Below are positions 1,364 through 31,529 of a stretch of 32,048 nt of DNA, in pieces; positions within the stretch are counted from its first letter, which is position 1; every line of letters begins with the position of its first letter. A program made the translations under genes and the position numbers. Location of the stretch: IMG/VR virus record IMGVR_UViG_3300009177_000085, positions 1 through 32,048 of that record. One strand, written 5' to 3'. The notes under the pieces were generated by a model. The model did not search any database. It was given only the letters and a program-made list of their open reading frames with translations, and was not told the origin of the DNA. This stretch comes from a virus.

Positions 1364-3987
1364 AAAAATCTCGCGCACCGTTCGATGAGTTGGACACGCA
1401 GCGCATAGCCGAGTGCTACAAGGTGTCCGGTTCGGTGAAAAAGATCGCCGTGTGGTACAACACGAGCGGCCAGTTGATCCGGCAGCACTTGGCCAAGGCT
1501 GGTATCGATGTGCCTGACCGGTCGTTCCTGAACGGCAAGAAACTGGTCGAACGGGGGCCGGCGCTGGACGATGTTGGGCTGGACGATCTGCGCACGAACT
1601 ACGGGGCGTTTGCGTTGGCCGTGCACCCTGATTGGGGGTACACGCATTTCCAACAAGCCATCCTTGCGCCGAGGCTGGAAGGCATTGCTCTTTGTAATCC
1701 AGCTTGTCGGCGGCAGATAATTTCGATGCCGTTTCGGCATAGCAAAACTCAATTTTGTGTCGAGACCTTTCTGCCGTTCTACTTTGGGCACAACCCAGAA
1801 CACTCAGTCATTCTGCTTGGCTACGGTAAAGCCTTATCTCGTACATCGGGTCGAACGATCCGTGAGATAATGAAAAGTGACCTGTACCAAGCGTTGTTCC
1901 CGTCAGCGTCCTTGACCAAGTTCAGCCGGGCGCAGGACGAGTTTCAGACGGTGAGCGGCGGTAAGTTTTATGCCGGCGGTTTTGATACCGGTGTGAATGG
2001 GCGAGGCGCACATTTGCTCTGCGTCGCGCAAGGTTCTCTCGTAACGACGCGACGCGGCCAAGTACCAATCGAACACGTTACGGTTGCAGACGAAGTTGCG
2101 ACTCCGTGGGCGTGGCAACGTGTTGAACGCGTGATGCACAACGGCGTGCGCCGGGTGATCCGTATTGGTTATGGTACGCACTCATTGACAGTGACTCACG
2201 ATCATCATATACTAACCCCGACCGGCTGGAGAGAAGCTGGTACTCTGCGAAAAGGGGACCGCGTATATGGTGTGCAAACAATGCCACAAGGCGTACGAGC
2301 CAAAAGAGAAGCGTCTCAACAAGCGCAAGAGCAAGTTCTGTTCGCCGACGTGCAGCAAGGAATGGACGCGGGTGTACTTCGAGAGCCGGCGCCCGGTGTG
2401 CAAACAGTGTGGTACGAGACTCGCCCGAGGCAAGGGGAAGCGCATGTTTTGCAATCAAACGTGTTACTCCGAATGGGCGCAGACAACGGGTGGCCTGCGT
2501 TCGTTGCGCCCGATCCTTTGTGCTACGTGCAACCGGGAGTTTCGGCCAACGAGTTACAAGACTCAGTTTTGTTCGATGGTCTGCAAGGAGCAAGCGCACG
2601 CGACGTTGATGGCTGGGAGGAACAATCCCAATTACCGTACTGGCAAATACCTGACGTACTACCTGCGGCGTTTCAAGAAGCGGCTATCGCCGCAGCTACG
2701 GGACCGATACCGCGCCTGCTTCGAGTGCAGTACAACGCACAACTTGATCGGGCATCACATGGACGAGAACAAGAGGAACGATACGATCGAGAACATTGCG
2801 GTCCTCTGTCAACCGTGTCACATGAAATTTCACAAGTCGAAGAATGCGGCTTCGCGCGAGTCTATGACATCCAAGTGGCAGAAGATCATTGCTTCATCGC
2901 TGACGGAATCTTCGTCCACAACTGTATAGACGATCCGCACAAGTCACGGCAGGAAATGGCCAGCGACACGATCATGTCGCAGAAGCGGGAGATGTACAAC
3001 GGGGTGGTGCGGGTGCGTCTCGAACCGAGTGCGGCGATCATCATTGCCAGTACGCGGTGGACGCCGGATGACTTGATCGGGTGGCGGGTGAGTGAGGATG
3101 GTGGGTGGGACGTGCAGCAGAATAGGCCGTACACAGATGGGCAGAGCAAGCCGAGTGACAAGCGCGGGCTGTGGGATGTGATCCGCCTACGCGCGATTGC
3201 TACCGAGGAAGAAGGCTGGCGCCATGAAGGCGATCCGCTCTGGCCCGAGCGGTGGCCGGTAGCCGAGCTGGAGCCGATCAAGAACGCCGACCTGTCAGTG
3301 TGGGAGGCTAGCTACCAACAAGAACCAACCATCGCTGGCGGCTACTGGTTCGCCAACACGCCCCTCAACTACTACGAGGAGACCAATGCGCGCGACCTCA
3401 ATGTCTACATGGTCTGTGACCCGGCGCTGCGTAAGACCAAGAAAGCCGACTTCACGGTCATACTCGTGTTCGGAACCGCTGGAGACGGAAATTACTATTG
3501 GCTCGACTGTGTCCGCGCACGCCTTGATCCCACCGAACGAGCTGATCATATCTTCCGTATGCACCGAAAGTGGAGGCCAATTTCTGTGGGCTACGAGGAG
3601 TACGGTCTCCAAGCGGACGTTGTTACATTGAAGGACCGAATGGAGCGGGAGAATTATCGGTTCCAGATAATCGAGCTGGGCCGGAGTGGGGAGTGGCACA
3701 ACCTGTCCAAGCCCGACCGCATCCGTACGCTGATGCCCATCGCCAACGCGGGCCGCATTTGGCTACCCAACCCCGAGACGCGCGGGCGTGACGCTGAGGT
3801 GGTCGAGGCAATCAAACGGTTTGTAAACGAGGAGTGGCAAAAGTATCCTGCGTGCAAGTACGACGACGTGATCGACGCGATGAGTAGAATGTGCGACCCG
3901 GCCATGCGTGTAGTGTTCCCGGCGCCCGTGCGCGAGAGCGCGCCGCCGCGCCCCAGACCCCCAGGTGCTTCATGGATGTCAGCCTAG
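1360..3987 (+). CDS. Terminase large subunit, interrupted by an intein
   Basis: This is the ATP-driven DNA packaging motor and nuclease. The precursor has 875 residues; removing the intein (2020-2922) leaves 574, normal for the family. The ATPase half has a deviant Walker A at residues 123-130 (MPFRHSKT), the equivalent of PPRHGKS in related terminases. Walker B is LLCIDDPHK, rebuilt across the splice junction, and motif III is STRWTPDDL. The nuclease half shows three acidic sites: VCDPAL, GYEEYG and YDDVIDAM. The first ~55 residues carry a helix-turn-helix-like segment (AECYKVSGSVKKIAVWYNTS), more often found in small terminase subunits. The ATGA overlap with the HAD gene fixes the start. 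Codons around 1680-1880 look less GC-rich than the rest. Confidence 0.95.
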   Translation: MKKSRAPFDELDTQRIAECYKVSGSVKKIAVWYNTSGQLIRQHLAKAGIDVPDRSFLNGKKLVERGPALDDVGLDDLRTNYGAFALAVHPDWGYTHFQQAILAPRLEGIALCNPACRRQIISMPFRHSKTQFCVETFLPFYFGHNPEHSVILLGYGKALSRTSGRTIREIMKSDLYQALFPSASLTKFSRAQDEFQTVSGGKFYAGGFDTGVNGRGAHLLCVAQGSLVTTRRGQVPIEHVTVADEVATPWAWQRVERVMHNGVRRVIRIGYGTHSLTVTHDHHILTPTGWREAGTLRKGDRVYGVQTMPQGVRAKREASQQAQEQVLFADVQQGMDAGVLREPAPGVQTVWYETRPRQGEAHVLQSNVLLRMGADNGWPAFVAPDPLCYVQPGVSANELQDSVLFDGLQGASARDVDGWEEQSQLPYWQIPDVLPAAFQEAAIAAATGPIPRLLRVQYNAQLDRASHGREQEERYDREHCGPLSTVSHEISQVEECGFARVYDIQVAEDHCFIADGIFVHNCIDDPHKSRQEMASDTIMSQKREMYNGVVRVRLEPSAAIIIASTRWTPDDLIGWRVSEDGGWDVQQNRPYTDGQSKPSDKRGLWDVIRLRAIATEEEGWRHEGDPLWPERWPVAELEPIKNADLSVWEASYQQEPTIAGGYWFANTPLNYYEETNARDLNVYMVCDPALRKTKKADFTVILVFGTAGDGNYYWLDCVRARLDPTERADHIFRMHRKWRPISVGYEEYGLQADVVTLKDRMERENYRFQIIELGRSGEWHNLSKPDRIRTLMPIANAGRIWLPNPETRGRDAEVVEAIKRFVNEEWQKYPACKYDDVIDAMSRMCDPAMRVVFPAPVRESAPPRPRPPGASWMSA
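2020..2922 (+). other. Intein in the terminase Walker B motif (301 residues)
   Basis: Protein-splicing element in the terminase frame. It starts with Cys (TGC 2020-2022) in block A, CVAQGSLVTTRRGQVPIEHV. Block B is LTVTHDHHILT, with the TxxH motif. The N-terminal splicing part ends near LRKGDRVYG (about 2271). The C-terminal part runs from about 2840 with block F, VYDIQVAEDHCFIADG, and block G, VHN, followed by Cys+1 (2923-2925). All residues needed for standard Cys1/Asn/Cys+1 splicing are present. Between these parts the intein frame is open but Gln/Ala-rich, with no LAGLIDADG or HNH motif. That stretch instead encodes an endonuclease in another frame. Excision restores GRGAHLL-CIDDPHK in the terminase. 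Confidence 0.93.
2250..2258 (+). promoter_or_regulatory. Ribosome binding site inside the intein for the nested endonuclease
   Basis: AAAAGGGGA lies 8 bases before the ATG at 2267. It is a Shine-Dalgarno-like sequence in the middle of the terminase/intein reading frame. It gives the overlapping endonuclease frame its own translation start, so no frameshift is needed to make that protein. Confidence 0.6.
2267..2929 (+). CDS. HNH homing endonuclease with three zinc fingers, nested out of frame in the intein
   Basis: This encodes 220 residues in frame 2, inside the terminase/intein gene read in frame 1. Three tandem Cys4 fingers come first: C3/C6/C25/C29, C45/C48/C62/C66 and C85/C88/C102/C106. 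The HNH domain follows: CFEC (151-154), GHHMDE (His163-His164), ENIAVLC (Asn176) and CQPCHMKFH (181-189). The nuclease is therefore complete, and the fingers probably recognise the target DNA. The real domain ends near base 2834. The last ~27 residues are read over the intein block F, and the TAG (2927-2929) lies just past the splice junction. Basic Lys/Arg-rich composition is typical of homing endonucleases. Expression is probably from the internal ribosome binding site at 2250-2258. Confidence 0.88.
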   Translation: MVCKQCHKAYEPKEKRLNKRKSKFCSPTCSKEWTRVYFESRRPVCKQCGTRLARGKGKRMFCNQTCYSEWAQTTGGLRSLRPILCATCNREFRPTSYKTQFCSMVCKEQAHATLMAGRNNPNYRTGKYLTYYLRRFKKRLSPQLRDRYRACFECSTTHNLIGHHMDENKRNDTIENIAVLCQPCHMKFHKSKNAASRESMTSKWQKIIASSLTESSSTTV

Positions 3988-27987: not shown

Positions 27988-28208
27988 CACTCCCCCTCCA
28001 ACTCGTTGATCCGGTCACGTACACGCTTGAGCCGGACCCAAGCAATCCAAGCCCAGCCTGCAACGTCTAGCAACTCTTGCATGATCTCGTCTGCGGTCTC
28101 CGGCAACGCACGCTCGAATGAGGCGTCACCGTAGGTTTGCGCGCCGACGTATAGGCGCGGGCGAAGGGCAGCGATGAAGGCGTCGAACTCAGGCAGCTCG
28201 CTCGGCAT
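27987..28208 (-). CDS. MazG-like / nucleotide pyrophosphohydrolase-related small protein
   Basis: This encodes 73 residues (MPSELPEFDAFIAALRPRL then YVGAQTYGDASFERALPE). The segment ETADEIMQELLDVAGWAWIA carries the spaced acidic residues E..E...E...D seen in all-alpha NTP pyrophosphohydrolases, and YGDASF is typical of the small phage members. Such enzymes hydrolyse unwanted nucleoside triphosphates, which suits a replication operon. At 73 residues it is shorter than full MazG enzymes, so it may act as a dimer or have lost activity. It overlaps the polymerase stop by 20 bases and the Cys-rich gene by one base. Confidence 0.65.
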   Translation of the reverse strand: MPSELPEFDAFIAALRPRLYVGAQTYGDASFERALPETADEIMQELLDVAGWAWIAWVRLKRVRDRINELEGE

Positions 28209-29805
28209 TGGGTTTTCCTTTCAGGAGGTCATACGCGGCCCGCTCAAACTCTGCGCGGCTGGGCAGGGTCTTCCACTCACGTTCACACTTCCAGCTCGTG
28301 CCCATTTTCAACTCAACGGGCACGGCCAGCTCCACACCTTCATACACACGCGGGGTCTCCATGCTCTTGATCACGAACCGCGCGACATCATACACTTCGT
28401 CGGGCGGGCAAGACAACAGTAAACTGTCGTGGACCTGGCAGTTGATGCGCGTTTTGAGACGGTGTTTGATTATGTACTTATACGCGGGTACCAGGCCGAG
28501 CTGGTTCAGGTTATCCGCGTTCTCACTCGCTGCACGGAAGGCGTAGCCACGCCGGTAGGTGGCGTCGTCCAGTCGCTCCCCTTCAAACGACAACTCCCGG
28601 CCCCAGCTGTTAGTCAGCTTCCGGTCGCGCATGATACGCTTGCGCGTCTCGCGTTGGTACGCGCGCTTGGGCGCAGTGATAGCGGCGTCGAGCAGCTTGG
28701 TACACAGTGCGAGCGGGAGCAGGATGCCGTCCTTGAGCATCATCTCTTGCACGCGCACGGGCGAGGCACCGTAGTTCCCGCCGTGGTTGAAGGGTTTGAA
28801 TATCTGCCTGCGCGTGTTGCCGGGCGTGACTTCGACCTTTACGTCCACGTTGTCAGGGTGGACGTTGAGGAGCTGGGCAAACGCTCGTTTGGCTGCGACG
28901 GCGTGGGTGTCAAAGATATCGGGGCGCAAGCGTGCTTCACGGATTAGTTCGGGGTCTTGGGTGAGCACCTTGACGATGCGGTCCTCGATAGCACTGAAGT
29001 CCAACTCCAGAAAAACGCACCCCTCGTCCGGTACAAATATCTCCCGCATATCCCCGCGCGGAATGTTCTGCAAGTTCATCCCGGTACCGAATGGGTTGGA
29101 CTTGGACGCGAGCCGGCCATTTTCAGTCGTGACCTTATACATACACCGCATGCGCCCATCGCGGTCCACTTTGCTCGGGTCCAGGTACGTGGCCAGCTTC
29201 GCCTTCTCACGGTGTTCGAGGATCAGTGTGAGCACACGCACGGCCAGCTCAGGCTCGCGCTTCCACAGCGCAGTCTTCTCCGTGGGGCGGCGCATGGGGT
29301 GTTCTGCCTGGTGCTGGGCCTTGAGCAGCAGCTTGCGCAGGGCGACCTCGTTGCCAGTTAGGGATTCCTCGCCGCGCTGGCGCTGGGCAGGCAAGCCGAG
29401 GTGGTTGTAGCAGTAGTCAACGATGCGTTGTGAGGAGAGGTCGGTTGAGCCGGTCAGGGCACGGACGCGAGGGGTGAAGTCCACGCACATGCGCCCGTAC
29501 ATACATTTGACATGGCTCTCACCGCACGGCCATGTAACCTTCGGTTTCCGCTTCGCTACTGTCCCGTCCTTCTTTAGAAACGGGGTGACTAGTTGCTCAT
29601 GCTGCTCACGCTTGTGTCCACACACGCAATCGTTCGCGCCGATCAGTTCGGCTAGCTCGGCTTGGATAGCCCGGCAACGGACGGATAGAGCAGCAAGTTT
29701 CTCTGCTGCCTTGGCGCGGTCTACACGGATGCCGTGATCCATCATGGCGAGCATAGGATCGGAGAGGGCAGCGTAATGGTTAAGATACAGATCGAGCTTG
29801 CTCAT
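28189..29805 (-). CDS. DNA polymerase, family A, polymerase domain only
   Basis: This encodes 538 residues. The ATG at 29805 (MSKLDLYLNH) forms ATGA with the previous stop and is preferred over the longer frame to 29832. Motif A is LELDFSAIEDRI (Asp269), motif B RRQIFKPFNHGGNYG (Lys337, Tyr345), and motif C VHDS (His459, Asp460), where Ser replaces the usual Glu. GRLASKSNPFGTGMNLQNIP is the usual thumb/palm junction. The exonuclease domain is missing and is found in the gene at 30122-31201. Residues 60-107 contain an unusual Cys/His-rich insert (C60, C62, H64, H69, C94, H98, C101, C107) near the N-terminal helices, which may bind zinc. It replicates the phage genome. Confidence 0.92.
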   Translation of the reverse strand: MSKLDLYLNHYAALSDPMLAMMDHGIRVDRAKAAEKLAALSVRCRAIQAELAELIGANDCVCGHKREQHEQLVTPFLKKDGTVAKRKPKVTWPCGESHVKCMYGRMCVDFTPRVRALTGSTDLSSQRIVDYCYNHLGLPAQRQRGEESLTGNEVALRKLLLKAQHQAEHPMRRPTEKTALWKREPELAVRVLTLILEHREKAKLATYLDPSKVDRDGRMRCMYKVTTENGRLASKSNPFGTGMNLQNIPRGDMREIFVPDEGCVFLELDFSAIEDRIVKVLTQDPELIREARLRPDIFDTHAVAAKRAFAQLLNVHPDNVDVKVEVTPGNTRRQIFKPFNHGGNYGASPVRVQEMMLKDGILLPLALCTKLLDAAITAPKRAYQRETRKRIMRDRKLTNSWGRELSFEGERLDDATYRRGYAFRAASENADNLNQLGLVPAYKYIIKHRLKTRINCQVHDSLLLSCPPDEVYDVARFVIKSMETPRVYEGVELAVPVELKMGTSWKCEREWKTLPSRAEFERAAYDLLKGKPNAERAA

Positions 29806-30125
29806 CCGTCTGCGTCCTGCTTCAACTTCCAAAGTTCGTCGGTGATCTTCTCTATGCTGTTGAGCAATTCGCTACGCCATCTATGCAAACAGTCGCACGC
29901 TTCGACAAGGTCTTTATGGCCTGCATAGTACGCCTTGAAGCTCTCGTGCTCGGCGCATAGGTTCGCGTACAACTCTTTGTACTCACGCGCGTTAGCAAAG
30001 TGCCCATCACGCGCTTGTTGGCAGTCTGCGATGTATATCTGCTGCAACTCGTCGCCTTTCATATCGAGCGCACGCATGGCGACAGCGAGCCAAAGCTCAC
30101 GGCCCCACTGGTCGTTGGGGATCAT
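29802..30125 (-). CDS. Small helical protein encoded between exonuclease and polymerase
   Basis: This encodes 107 residues from the ATG at 30125, in an ATGA overlap with the UDG-exonuclease stop; an in-frame start further upstream (30173) would overlap that gene by 50 bases and is less likely. It is all-helical: RELWLAVAMRALDMKGDELQ, then FANAREYKELYANLCAEHES and LHRWRSELLNSIEKITDELW. No catalytic motif is seen. Because it separates two domains that are one protein in family A polymerases, it may be a linker, clamp-like factor or simply a gene inserted at the split. It ends in ATGA with the polymerase. Confidence 0.7.
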   Translation of the reverse strand: MIPNDQWGRELWLAVAMRALDMKGDELQQIYIADCQQARDGHFANAREYKELYANLCAEHESFKAYYAGHKDLVEACDCLHRWRSELLNSIEKITDELWKLKQDADG

Positions 30126-31201
30126 GCTCGCAGCCTTTCCATATACACGTCGAACAGCTGCCTCGACACGCAACAGTCCACCCCATTATAGATGCACAAC
30201 CGTTCAAACGGTTCCTTGTCAGCAGTGTCAGAATCTTCATCCTTGTGCGAACGTTTCCAAAACGGCTGCCGCGTGTCGAGGCTTGCCATCGTGGCTAGAT
30301 CGTGGGGCAAAGTCGAGTCGATCGTATGGTGCATGGACAGCAGATCGTGTATCTCCCCACGCACTTCGATGTCCCCGAGCACGAGTAGCCAGTAGCGATC
30401 GTAGAGGAAGTTCTGGCCGACCTTTACACACGGCGACTCACATAGGACACGGATGATCTTACGGTACTGGGGCCACGGAAGCGTGAGCGATTCGCCTGGG
30501 TCAAAGCTGAAGCCCACACACAGTATCTCACGCGTGGATGGGTTAGTCTCAATGTCGATCGCCATGACCGTACACGGGTCTAATGCTTCGTTAATGTATC
30601 GGGTCACGTCGTCGTCGTGGATAGGCGGTACAAGGTGGATGTACTTCGGTAATCGCCTCGCACGGAACTGGCTATCGCCCGCGATCCGGTGCCAGTCTGC
30701 TCGGCACAGTTTACCAAGCGAGCTGTCACGGAAGCTGGCAGCAGGGTGGTAGGTCGGGATGACCTTACACCAGCGTTCAGGGTCGGGCAGTATGGTGTTG
30801 AAGTCGTAGCGCAGTATCGACCCACGCCAGTCCCCAATCTTAGGTGACTTGTTACTCCACAACGGCTTACGCATCACCGCGCGCAGGGCGATGTTGCCCA
30901 TAGGGACGAGGACGATCGGGTCTTGTAATTCACGCAAGCGCGTGTGCAGGCTGTCGGCCCATACTTCGACCTCGGCTTTGTCGGCCTTGGTTATGTTCGA
31001 GCCTGGAGCCATGTACTCGAAGACGTTCATCGTGCGGATGTCCCGCCGCCGTAGGCCGGCCCCGTCCAGCCACTTGTCGAGCAGATGACCGGACGGGCCG
31101 ATGAATGGGCGCCCGACGAGGCATTCCTGGCGCCCCGGCGCTTCGCCGATAATCACGATCTTCGCATCAAGTGGCCCGTAGGAGGGCACGCGGCGGGTCA
31201 T
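30122..31201 (-). CDS. Uracil-DNA glycosylase fused to a 3'-5' exonuclease domain
   Basis: This encodes 359 residues. Residues ~10-180 are a UDG-superfamily domain: IVIIGEAPGRQE (Glu20-Gly23), GRPFIGPSGHLLD (30-42), TMNVFEY (57-63), LVPMGNIALRA, and the catalytic-type PTYHPAASFRD (His152). Only C27, C145 and C166 are present, so the four-Cys iron-sulfur site of family 4 enzymes is missing. Residues 205-359 are a DEDDy exonuclease like that of family A polymerases: ExoI AIDIETN (Asp216, Glu218), ExoII VGQNFLYDRY (Asp268) and ExoIII YNGVD (Tyr338, Asp342). The polymerase domain is a separate protein downstream. The pair would remove uracil and proofread during replication. UDG-like N-termini on full polymerases are known in some phages such as SPO1. 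Confidence 0.9.
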   Translation of the reverse strand: MTRRVPSYGPLDAKIVIIGEAPGRQECLVGRPFIGPSGHLLDKWLDGAGLRRRDIRTMNVFEYMAPGSNITKADKAEVEVWADSLHTRLRELQDPIVLVPMGNIALRAVMRKPLWSNKSPKIGDWRGSILRYDFNTILPDPERWCKVIPTYHPAASFRDSSLGKLCRADWHRIAGDSQFRARRLPKYIHLVPPIHDDDVTRYINEALDPCTVMAIDIETNPSTREILCVGFSFDPGESLTLPWPQYRKIIRVLCESPCVKVGQNFLYDRYWLLVLGDIEVRGEIHDLLSMHHTIDSTLPHDLATMASLDTRQPFWKRSHKDEDSDTADKEPFERLCIYNGVDCCVSRQLFDVYMERLRA

Positions 31202-31529
31202 TTGTACTTAGGGCTAATGCCCATTTGGTATACAATTGACGCGTTGTTCAACCACTCTGGTTTAAAGAGCGCGCCTAAACTGACGTCACGCCCAGTTGCT
31301 GGGTCGATACCGAACCGCTGTTCAACTGGGCTTATACGAAAGGGCGCACAAGTACCTGTGCGCGGGACGCGTCGAAGTTGGCGCCGGCATCACGCGCGGC
31401 CTTTGCAATCGCGGCTTGTGTGTTGGCTGCGACGATAGCGGTCGGCGGAAGGACAAGTCGCTCGCCCTCACCCGCGTCCACCTGGGTCTTGGTCGGTGTT
31501 TCGATGATGGCTACTTCAAAAAGTGGCAT
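31198..31529 (-). CDS. Predicted 110-residue -1 frameshift fusion of the small replication gene
   Basis: If ribosomes slip -1 on CCCTTTC (31344-31338) they bypass the TAA at 31334-31332. They would then add 46 residues: RISPVEQRFGIDPATGRDVS, then LGALFKPEWLNNASIVYQMG and ISPKYK, ending in TGA (31200-31198). The added peptide looks like ordinary protein. The -1 frame is open only from 31389 and has no ATG, GTG or TTG before the TTG inside EWLNN, so it has no credible start of its own. Its TGA forms ATGA with the next gene, as at every other junction of this operon. The frameshift product is therefore a prediction from sequence, not shown. Confidence 0.75.
31290..31344 (-). promoter_or_regulatory. 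-1 programmed ribosomal frameshift signal
   Basis: On the minus strand the zero-frame codons CGC CCT TTC hold the heptamer C-CCT-TTC, a perfect X-XXY-YYZ slippery site (31344-31338). A 6-nt spacer follows (GTATAA, containing the zero-frame stop), then a 9-bp perfect stem: GCCCAGTTG (31331-31323) with CAACTGGGC (31298-31290). Its 24-nt loop can form a smaller inner stem (GGT-CG with CG-ACC, loop GTAT). Spacing and stem stability fit known bacterial and phage -1 frameshift elements. Confidence 0.8.
31332..31529 (-). CDS. Small conserved-type phage replication-region protein (zero-frame product)
   Basis: This encodes 65 residues (MPLFEVAIIETPTKTQVDAG then EGERLVLPPTAIVAANTQAA, ending VLVRPFV). 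AGGAGA lies eight bases before the ATG. I recognise this kind of sequence (MxLFEVAxIExPTK...VxA...VLVRPF) as a small protein common in phage replication regions, with no known function; this is recollection, not a search. It follows the ssDNA-binding-like gene and precedes the UDG-exonuclease. Its last sense codons contain the slippery heptamer, so a longer -1 product is likely made as well. Confidence 0.85.
   Translation of the reverse strand: MPLFEVAIIETPTKTQVDAGEGERLVLPPTAIVAANTQAAIAKAARDAGANFDASRAQVLVRPFV

Follow-up and report, generated by a model that had tools for sequence, protein, structure and literature searches.

Introduction

Most of the conserved frameshift genes described for tailed phages encode tail assembly chaperones or virion proteins to which a domain is added. 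The tail assembly chaperone gene is the commonest of them (PMC5009743, PMC10885494), and the addition of Ig-like domains by frameshifting in phages has also been reported (Fraser et al. 2006, reviewed in PMC5009743). In E. coli, the heptamers C_CC.U_UU.U and C_CC.U_UU.C belong to the efficient H_HH.U_UU.Y class (PMC4066793). However, we did not find C_CCU_UUY named for any phage gene in the literature that we searched.

We have analyzed a small gene carried by the minus strand of the 32-kb IMG/VR virus record IMGVR_UViG_3300009177_000085. The whole stretch of 32,048 nt is called here the window. An earlier note, made from the sequence alone, had proposed a -1 programmed frameshift in this gene. 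Comparative sequence supports this reading, in the absence of any experimental data. We propose that ribosomes decode this gene by canonical -1 programmed frameshifting, which we consider very likely (probability of about 0.93) on the basis of a heptamer, a spacer and a stem pairing that are all conserved, a -1 frame that is coding and a zero-frame stop that is retained. Slippage in the real host, its rate and the ratio of the products in cells are inferred, and the strength of the frameshift reading does not extend to the role proposed below for the protein.

Results and Discussion

The window gene and its predicted recoding signal

The features of the locus are collected in Table 1. The 3' end of the zero-frame gene reads GTG CGC CCT TTC GTA TAA, and the -1 frame runs for 46 codons beyond the Phe codon. 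The heptamer, the 6-nt spacer, the 9-bp stem and the 46-codon -1 frame described in the earlier note were all found as claimed, and so were the sizes of the two predicted products, 65 and 110 residues; the strand had not been given. The -1 frame ends, as had been stated, on the ATGA of the next gene (TGA at 31200-31198, ATG at 31201). The statement that this frame lacks a start codon holds nearby, the earliest ATG, GTG or TTG being 80 nt beyond the zero-frame stop.

Table 1. Positions of the gene and of its putative recoding elements in the window
Feature	Positions	Strand	Description	Basis
Zero-frame gene	31332..31529	-	65 codons, MPLFEVAI...VLVRPFV; ATG at 31529, TAA at 31334-31332	Open reading frame and about 70 homologues
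Slippery heptamer C_CCT_TTC	31338..31344	-	In phase with the zero frame	Sequence and Pro codons of homologues
Spacer GTATAA	31332..31337	-	6 nt, holds the zero-frame stop	Helix starts in the family peak at 6-7 nt
Stimulatory stem, 5' arm GCCCAGTTG	31323..31331	-		Fold and partner-swap pairing in the family
Stimulatory stem, 3' arm CAACTGGGC	31290..31298	-		Fold of the window sequence
-1 frame extension RISPVEQRFGIDPATGRDVSLGALFKPEWLNNASIVYQMGISPKYK	31198..31338	-	46 codons and TGA; overlaps the ATG of the next gene	Family-wide coding evidence

The two arms of the stem form a perfect helix of 9 bp that closes a 24-nt loop (31299-31322) containing a small inner hairpin. Spacer and stem together have a folding energy of -20.3 kcal/mol (z = -3.3), with 1 of 200 shuffles equally good, and the uninterrupted helix taken alone gives p = 0.015. 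The decisive support for the signal comes from comparison: about 65 diverse homologues have the heptamer, the spacer, the stem and an open -1 frame.

A family without matches among known protein families

Scanning IMG/VR with the zero-frame protein yielded 55 loci, and added scans with the family alignment, with a consensus-like sequence and with a VLVRPFA-stop pattern brought the collection to about 70 distinct sequences. The slip site was not part of the search pattern in the scan with the zero-frame protein or in the rescan with the family alignment, from which most homologues come, and any Pro codon was permitted in the later scans. Among named phage records, tblastn matched only LR756501 and LR756503, which have the same length (735,411 bases) and match at the identical place. 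A match to the Planktothrix phage PaV-LD (E 0.8) was rejected as chance. No relatives were found in GTDB genomes by pattern scans, nor in plasmids.

The window protein matched nothing in Pfam or PHROG, 33 members of the family matched nothing in NCBIfam, and no match was obtained in the PDB by sequence or in Rfam. The recognition of the protein in the earlier note as a small family known from phage replication regions thus remains unconfirmed. Homologues adjoin replication, recombination, terminase, portal or other genes. The note was also unaware of any frameshifting described for the family; we found no description of the family at all in the literature searched, an absence that is not proof. 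The gene family appears to be new, and its use of frameshifting appears undescribed within that literature.

The slip site is conserved at the codon level

In the 68 sequences that end with Arg-x-Phe, the codon pair following the Arg is CCT-TTT (34 sequences) or CCT-TTC (31), with one instance each of TCT-TTT, CCC-TTC and CAG-TTC. The Pro of the terminal Arg-Pro-Phe is encoded by CCT in 65 of 66 cases, against only 22 of 261 (8%) for the other Pro residues of the same genes (Fisher p ~4e-48, without correction for common ancestry); the C_CCT_TTY sequence is therefore kept. The preceding Arg is CGC in 65/68 sequences. Outside the family, sequences that match the VLVRPFA pattern by chance (L179, L187, L201 and L217) display CGA-CCA, CGA-CCT or CGG-CCG. 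In 51 of 63 loci the heptamer lies 3 nt from the zero-frame stop, for which TAA, TAG and TGA are used about equally, as would be expected if the presence of a stop alone matters. As a control, an in-phase XXXYYY heptamer (Y = A/T) near the stop was observed in just 7 of 414 other genes of the same loci.

The stem is conserved by pairing and by position

Over 63 non-redundant loci, mean helix strength plotted by start position shows a sharp peak 6-7 nt past the heptamer. Because the stem sequences differ between loci, pairing was assessed by swapping the 3' regions between loci. The mean score was 18.0 with own partners versus 12.0 with swapped ones (z = 11.2); none of 20,000 permutations exceeded 14.0. 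A strong stem is present in 46% of the family loci and in 4% of the 414 other genes of the same loci at the matching position past their stops. That only about half of the loci have a strong uninterrupted helix has to be read with the scope of this count, which excludes bulged stems and pseudoknots.

The -1 frame is coding

Past the zero-frame stop, the median number of open codons is 69 in the -1 frame versus 21 and 23 for the two remaining frames. Synonymous divergence exceeds non-synonymous divergence (pS > pN) in all 20 comparable pairs of -1 frames, not all of which are independent, and the close pair L025/L029 differs at 8, 2 and 22 sites in -1 codon positions 1, 2 and 3, respectively. 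Altogether, the -1 frame is under purifying selection. A C-terminal motif of the type YasPxGsqtYsAssL ends the extension, at most 16 residues from its stop, in 52 of 63 loci, and was not seen above noise on other proteins of the same loci. Other types of extension exist: Gly-rich collagen-like repeats were recognized by eye in L011 and L098, and the extension of LR756501 matches the Pfam collagen family (E 8e-9). This 735-kb phage keeps CGCCCTTTTTAA ahead of its -1-frame collagen domain. Collagen-like extensions are found neither in the window nor in most relatives, and their carrier is not known to be a virion protein.

The earlier note had suggested aligning homologues for the heptamer, spacer, stem and -1 peptide. 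Diverse homologues conserve the first three in phase; selection also acts on the peptide as read in the -1 frame, and in most cases the peptide has no start codon to itself. The extension of the window lacks the C-terminal motif of most relatives; it is therefore supported by its frame and by the signal, whereas its own residues show no conservation that would support it. The only other copy of this extension is in L001, which is the same virus (100% identity over 5.7 kb), and the extension alone found no relative among named phages.

Divergent relatives as natural experiments

Three divergent relatives depart from this scheme. In L050, which has neither the Arg-Pro-Phe end nor the heptamer, the N-terminal domain runs in a single frame into the tail motif ATAPRGASTFSATDLMKGA. 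In L111, C_CCC_TTC is found instead of the usual heptamer, and the -1 frame is an Arg-rich stretch that is not protein-like. In L117 (1253-2076), Arg-Pro-Phe is lost and TTC-CCT-CCT is followed by a perfect 11-bp hairpin, CGTCGTAGGCG/CGCCTACGACG (identified by eye), that includes the stop codon; the -1 frame then continues for about 200 residues. It is possible that L117 uses a different slip site.

Predicted fold and gene neighbourhoods

The N-terminal domain is predicted by AlphaFold2, at high confidence (pLDDT 93.5), to adopt a beta-beta-alpha-beta fold, and the L050 tail is predicted, with low confidence, to contain a short helix. Foldseek found nothing below 1e-3 for the N-terminal domain in the PDB or BFVD. 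The best VIA-align hit (Z 7.9; 2.0 A over 59 residues) was to a ribosomal protein of the eukaryotic large subunit, in its N-terminal part (chain S of 60S structures); it was not used because such a score is at the level of a common arrangement.

The window gene sits among replication genes, whereas the structural genes are on the other strand; its neighbours are a UDG and exonuclease-like gene, which comes next, and DNA polymerase A. This polymerase is apparently split (28189-31201, minus strand) into the UDG/exonuclease-like gene, a 123-aa open reading frame and a distinct gene for the polymerase domain. Both large genes match phrog_17, in successive parts of it. Neighbours in the relatives comprise RecT- or Sak4-like annealing proteins, a DUF669 protein, an AAA ATPase, a DNA methylase, terminase and portal. 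In L006 (2218-4572), unlike the replication-region setting of the window, the last base of a portal gene immediately precedes the ATG of the family gene. In L098, the family gene directly follows a gene (2702-3829) for an adenylosuccinate synthetase-like protein (Pfam E 2e-46; PHROG 1211, 2-amino type, E 3e-51), and this phage may carry 2-aminoadenine in its DNA. Lastly, L121 (LR756501.1) has two nearby collagen-like coding stretches (107-1192 and 3198-3755) with a DUF4419 gene between them, one of the two being reachable via the -1 frame only.

Proposed mechanism and alternative explanations

We propose the following model. The majority of ribosomes would translate MPLFEVAI...VRPFV, reach the stop codon and release the 65-residue protein. 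The hairpin starting 6 nt downstream would pause a minority of ribosomes, which would slip back by one base on C_CCU_UUC, the Pro tRNA moving from CCU to CCC and the Phe tRNA from UUC to UUU. These ribosomes would bypass the stop and gain 46 residues, giving the 110-residue protein. More speculatively, the beta-beta-alpha-beta domain may be an assembling core, and the tail, made of a variable linker and a C-terminal motif or of collagen-like repeats, may dock onto, or be exposed on, the virion or a nucleoprotein complex.

One could first object that the -1 frame encodes a separate small protein produced by translational coupling, with terminating ribosomes re-initiating where a start codon overlaps the stop (ATGA/GTGA). 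Such an overlapping start does exist in 21 of 63 loci (GTG 16, ATG 4, TTG 1). However, the remaining 42 have none, 27 of these also lack a start within 30 nt past the stop, and the window has none over 80 nt. Moreover, a TGA stop after a GCN codon yields such a start triplet for free in this phase, and coupling gives no reason to expect an invariant C_CCT_TTY, or a stem 6-7 nt beyond it. We thus regard coupling as very improbable.

A second possibility is that the gene is a frameshifting tail assembly chaperone of the lambda G/GT type, which would fit the small size of this phage protein and a longer, minor form produced by a -1 frameshift. This too is highly unlikely. In the window and in the neighbourhoods of its relatives, the family gene is never seen between the major tail protein and the tape measure, and no match to a chaperone family was obtained in Pfam, PHROG or NCBIfam, very remote homology not being excluded.

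The heptamer could also be a mere by-product of VRPF conservation combined with a CCT codon bias, and the stem a terminator or a chance fold. It is true that the Arg, Pro and Phe residues are themselves conserved. On the other hand, no such bias is seen at the other Pro codons (8% CCT), and a stem of this strength is rare (4%) past the stops of other genes in these loci. As for a terminator, a T run seldom follows the stem, which moreover lies within a frame under purifying selection. Save for shared ancestry, this explanation is refuted statistically and can practically be discarded.

Finally, transcriptional slippage, or a sequencing error splitting one gene into two frames, could account for a two-frame pattern in a single sequence, but both are virtually ruled out by the constant offset of about 65 independent contigs, in which three different stop codons occur, by the phased stem and, for transcriptional slippage, which usually needs long A or T runs, by runs of just CCC and TTT or TTTT.

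Possible role and significance

Programmed frameshifting being our preferred reading, one would wonder what would be the benefit of two products. A speculative answer, which we infer and hold only tentatively, is that the gene encodes a small assembling core protein, of which a low number of copies, set by the shift, carry a tail. A bolder hypothesis, which we do not favour over its negation either, is that of a mobile recoding module found across widely differing phages (up to 735 kb) and gene neighbourhoods. With its frameshift cassette nearly always kept, it would present diverse C-terminal parts (a linker and conserved docking motif, collagen-like repeats or the 200-residue stretch of L117) at a ratio set by the ribosome, outside capsid and tail assembly. 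Whatever the role, a separate gene family joins the phage frameshift genes with unusually complete comparative evidence, and standard gene calling overlooks the second half of a gene that many environmental phages carry. That the need for two isoforms is conserved suggests an undescribed function dependent on stoichiometry.

Comparison with known systems

The mechanism itself is very likely of a known kind, that of canonical -1 programmed frameshifting. The family shares with the bacterial cassettes of dnaX and IS3/IS911 an X_XXY_YYZ heptamer with a downstream stem. However, the latter use A_AAA_AAG types whereas the family uses C_CCU_UUY, and no upstream Shine-Dalgarno-like element was noticed in the family (by eye only). 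A parallel can also be drawn with the tail assembly chaperone G/GT, which is likewise small, has a longer minor form made by a -1 shift and occurs widely among tailed phages; the family differs from it by its genomic position, by the lack of detectable homology and by its nearly invariant C_CCT_TTY.

With the frameshifts of the T3 capsid and of the Lactobacillus phage A2 head protein, the family has in common one start and two C-termini, the extended form being expected to be the minority. As in these systems and in the Ig-like ones, the extension modules differ between phages and in-frame versions exist as well, here in L050. The T3 and A2 carriers are virion proteins, whereas the carrier here is an unclassified protein of 60-70 aa that is not a known capsid or tail protein. 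In place of the Ig-like extensions, the family has a linker with a short motif, or collagen-like repeats.
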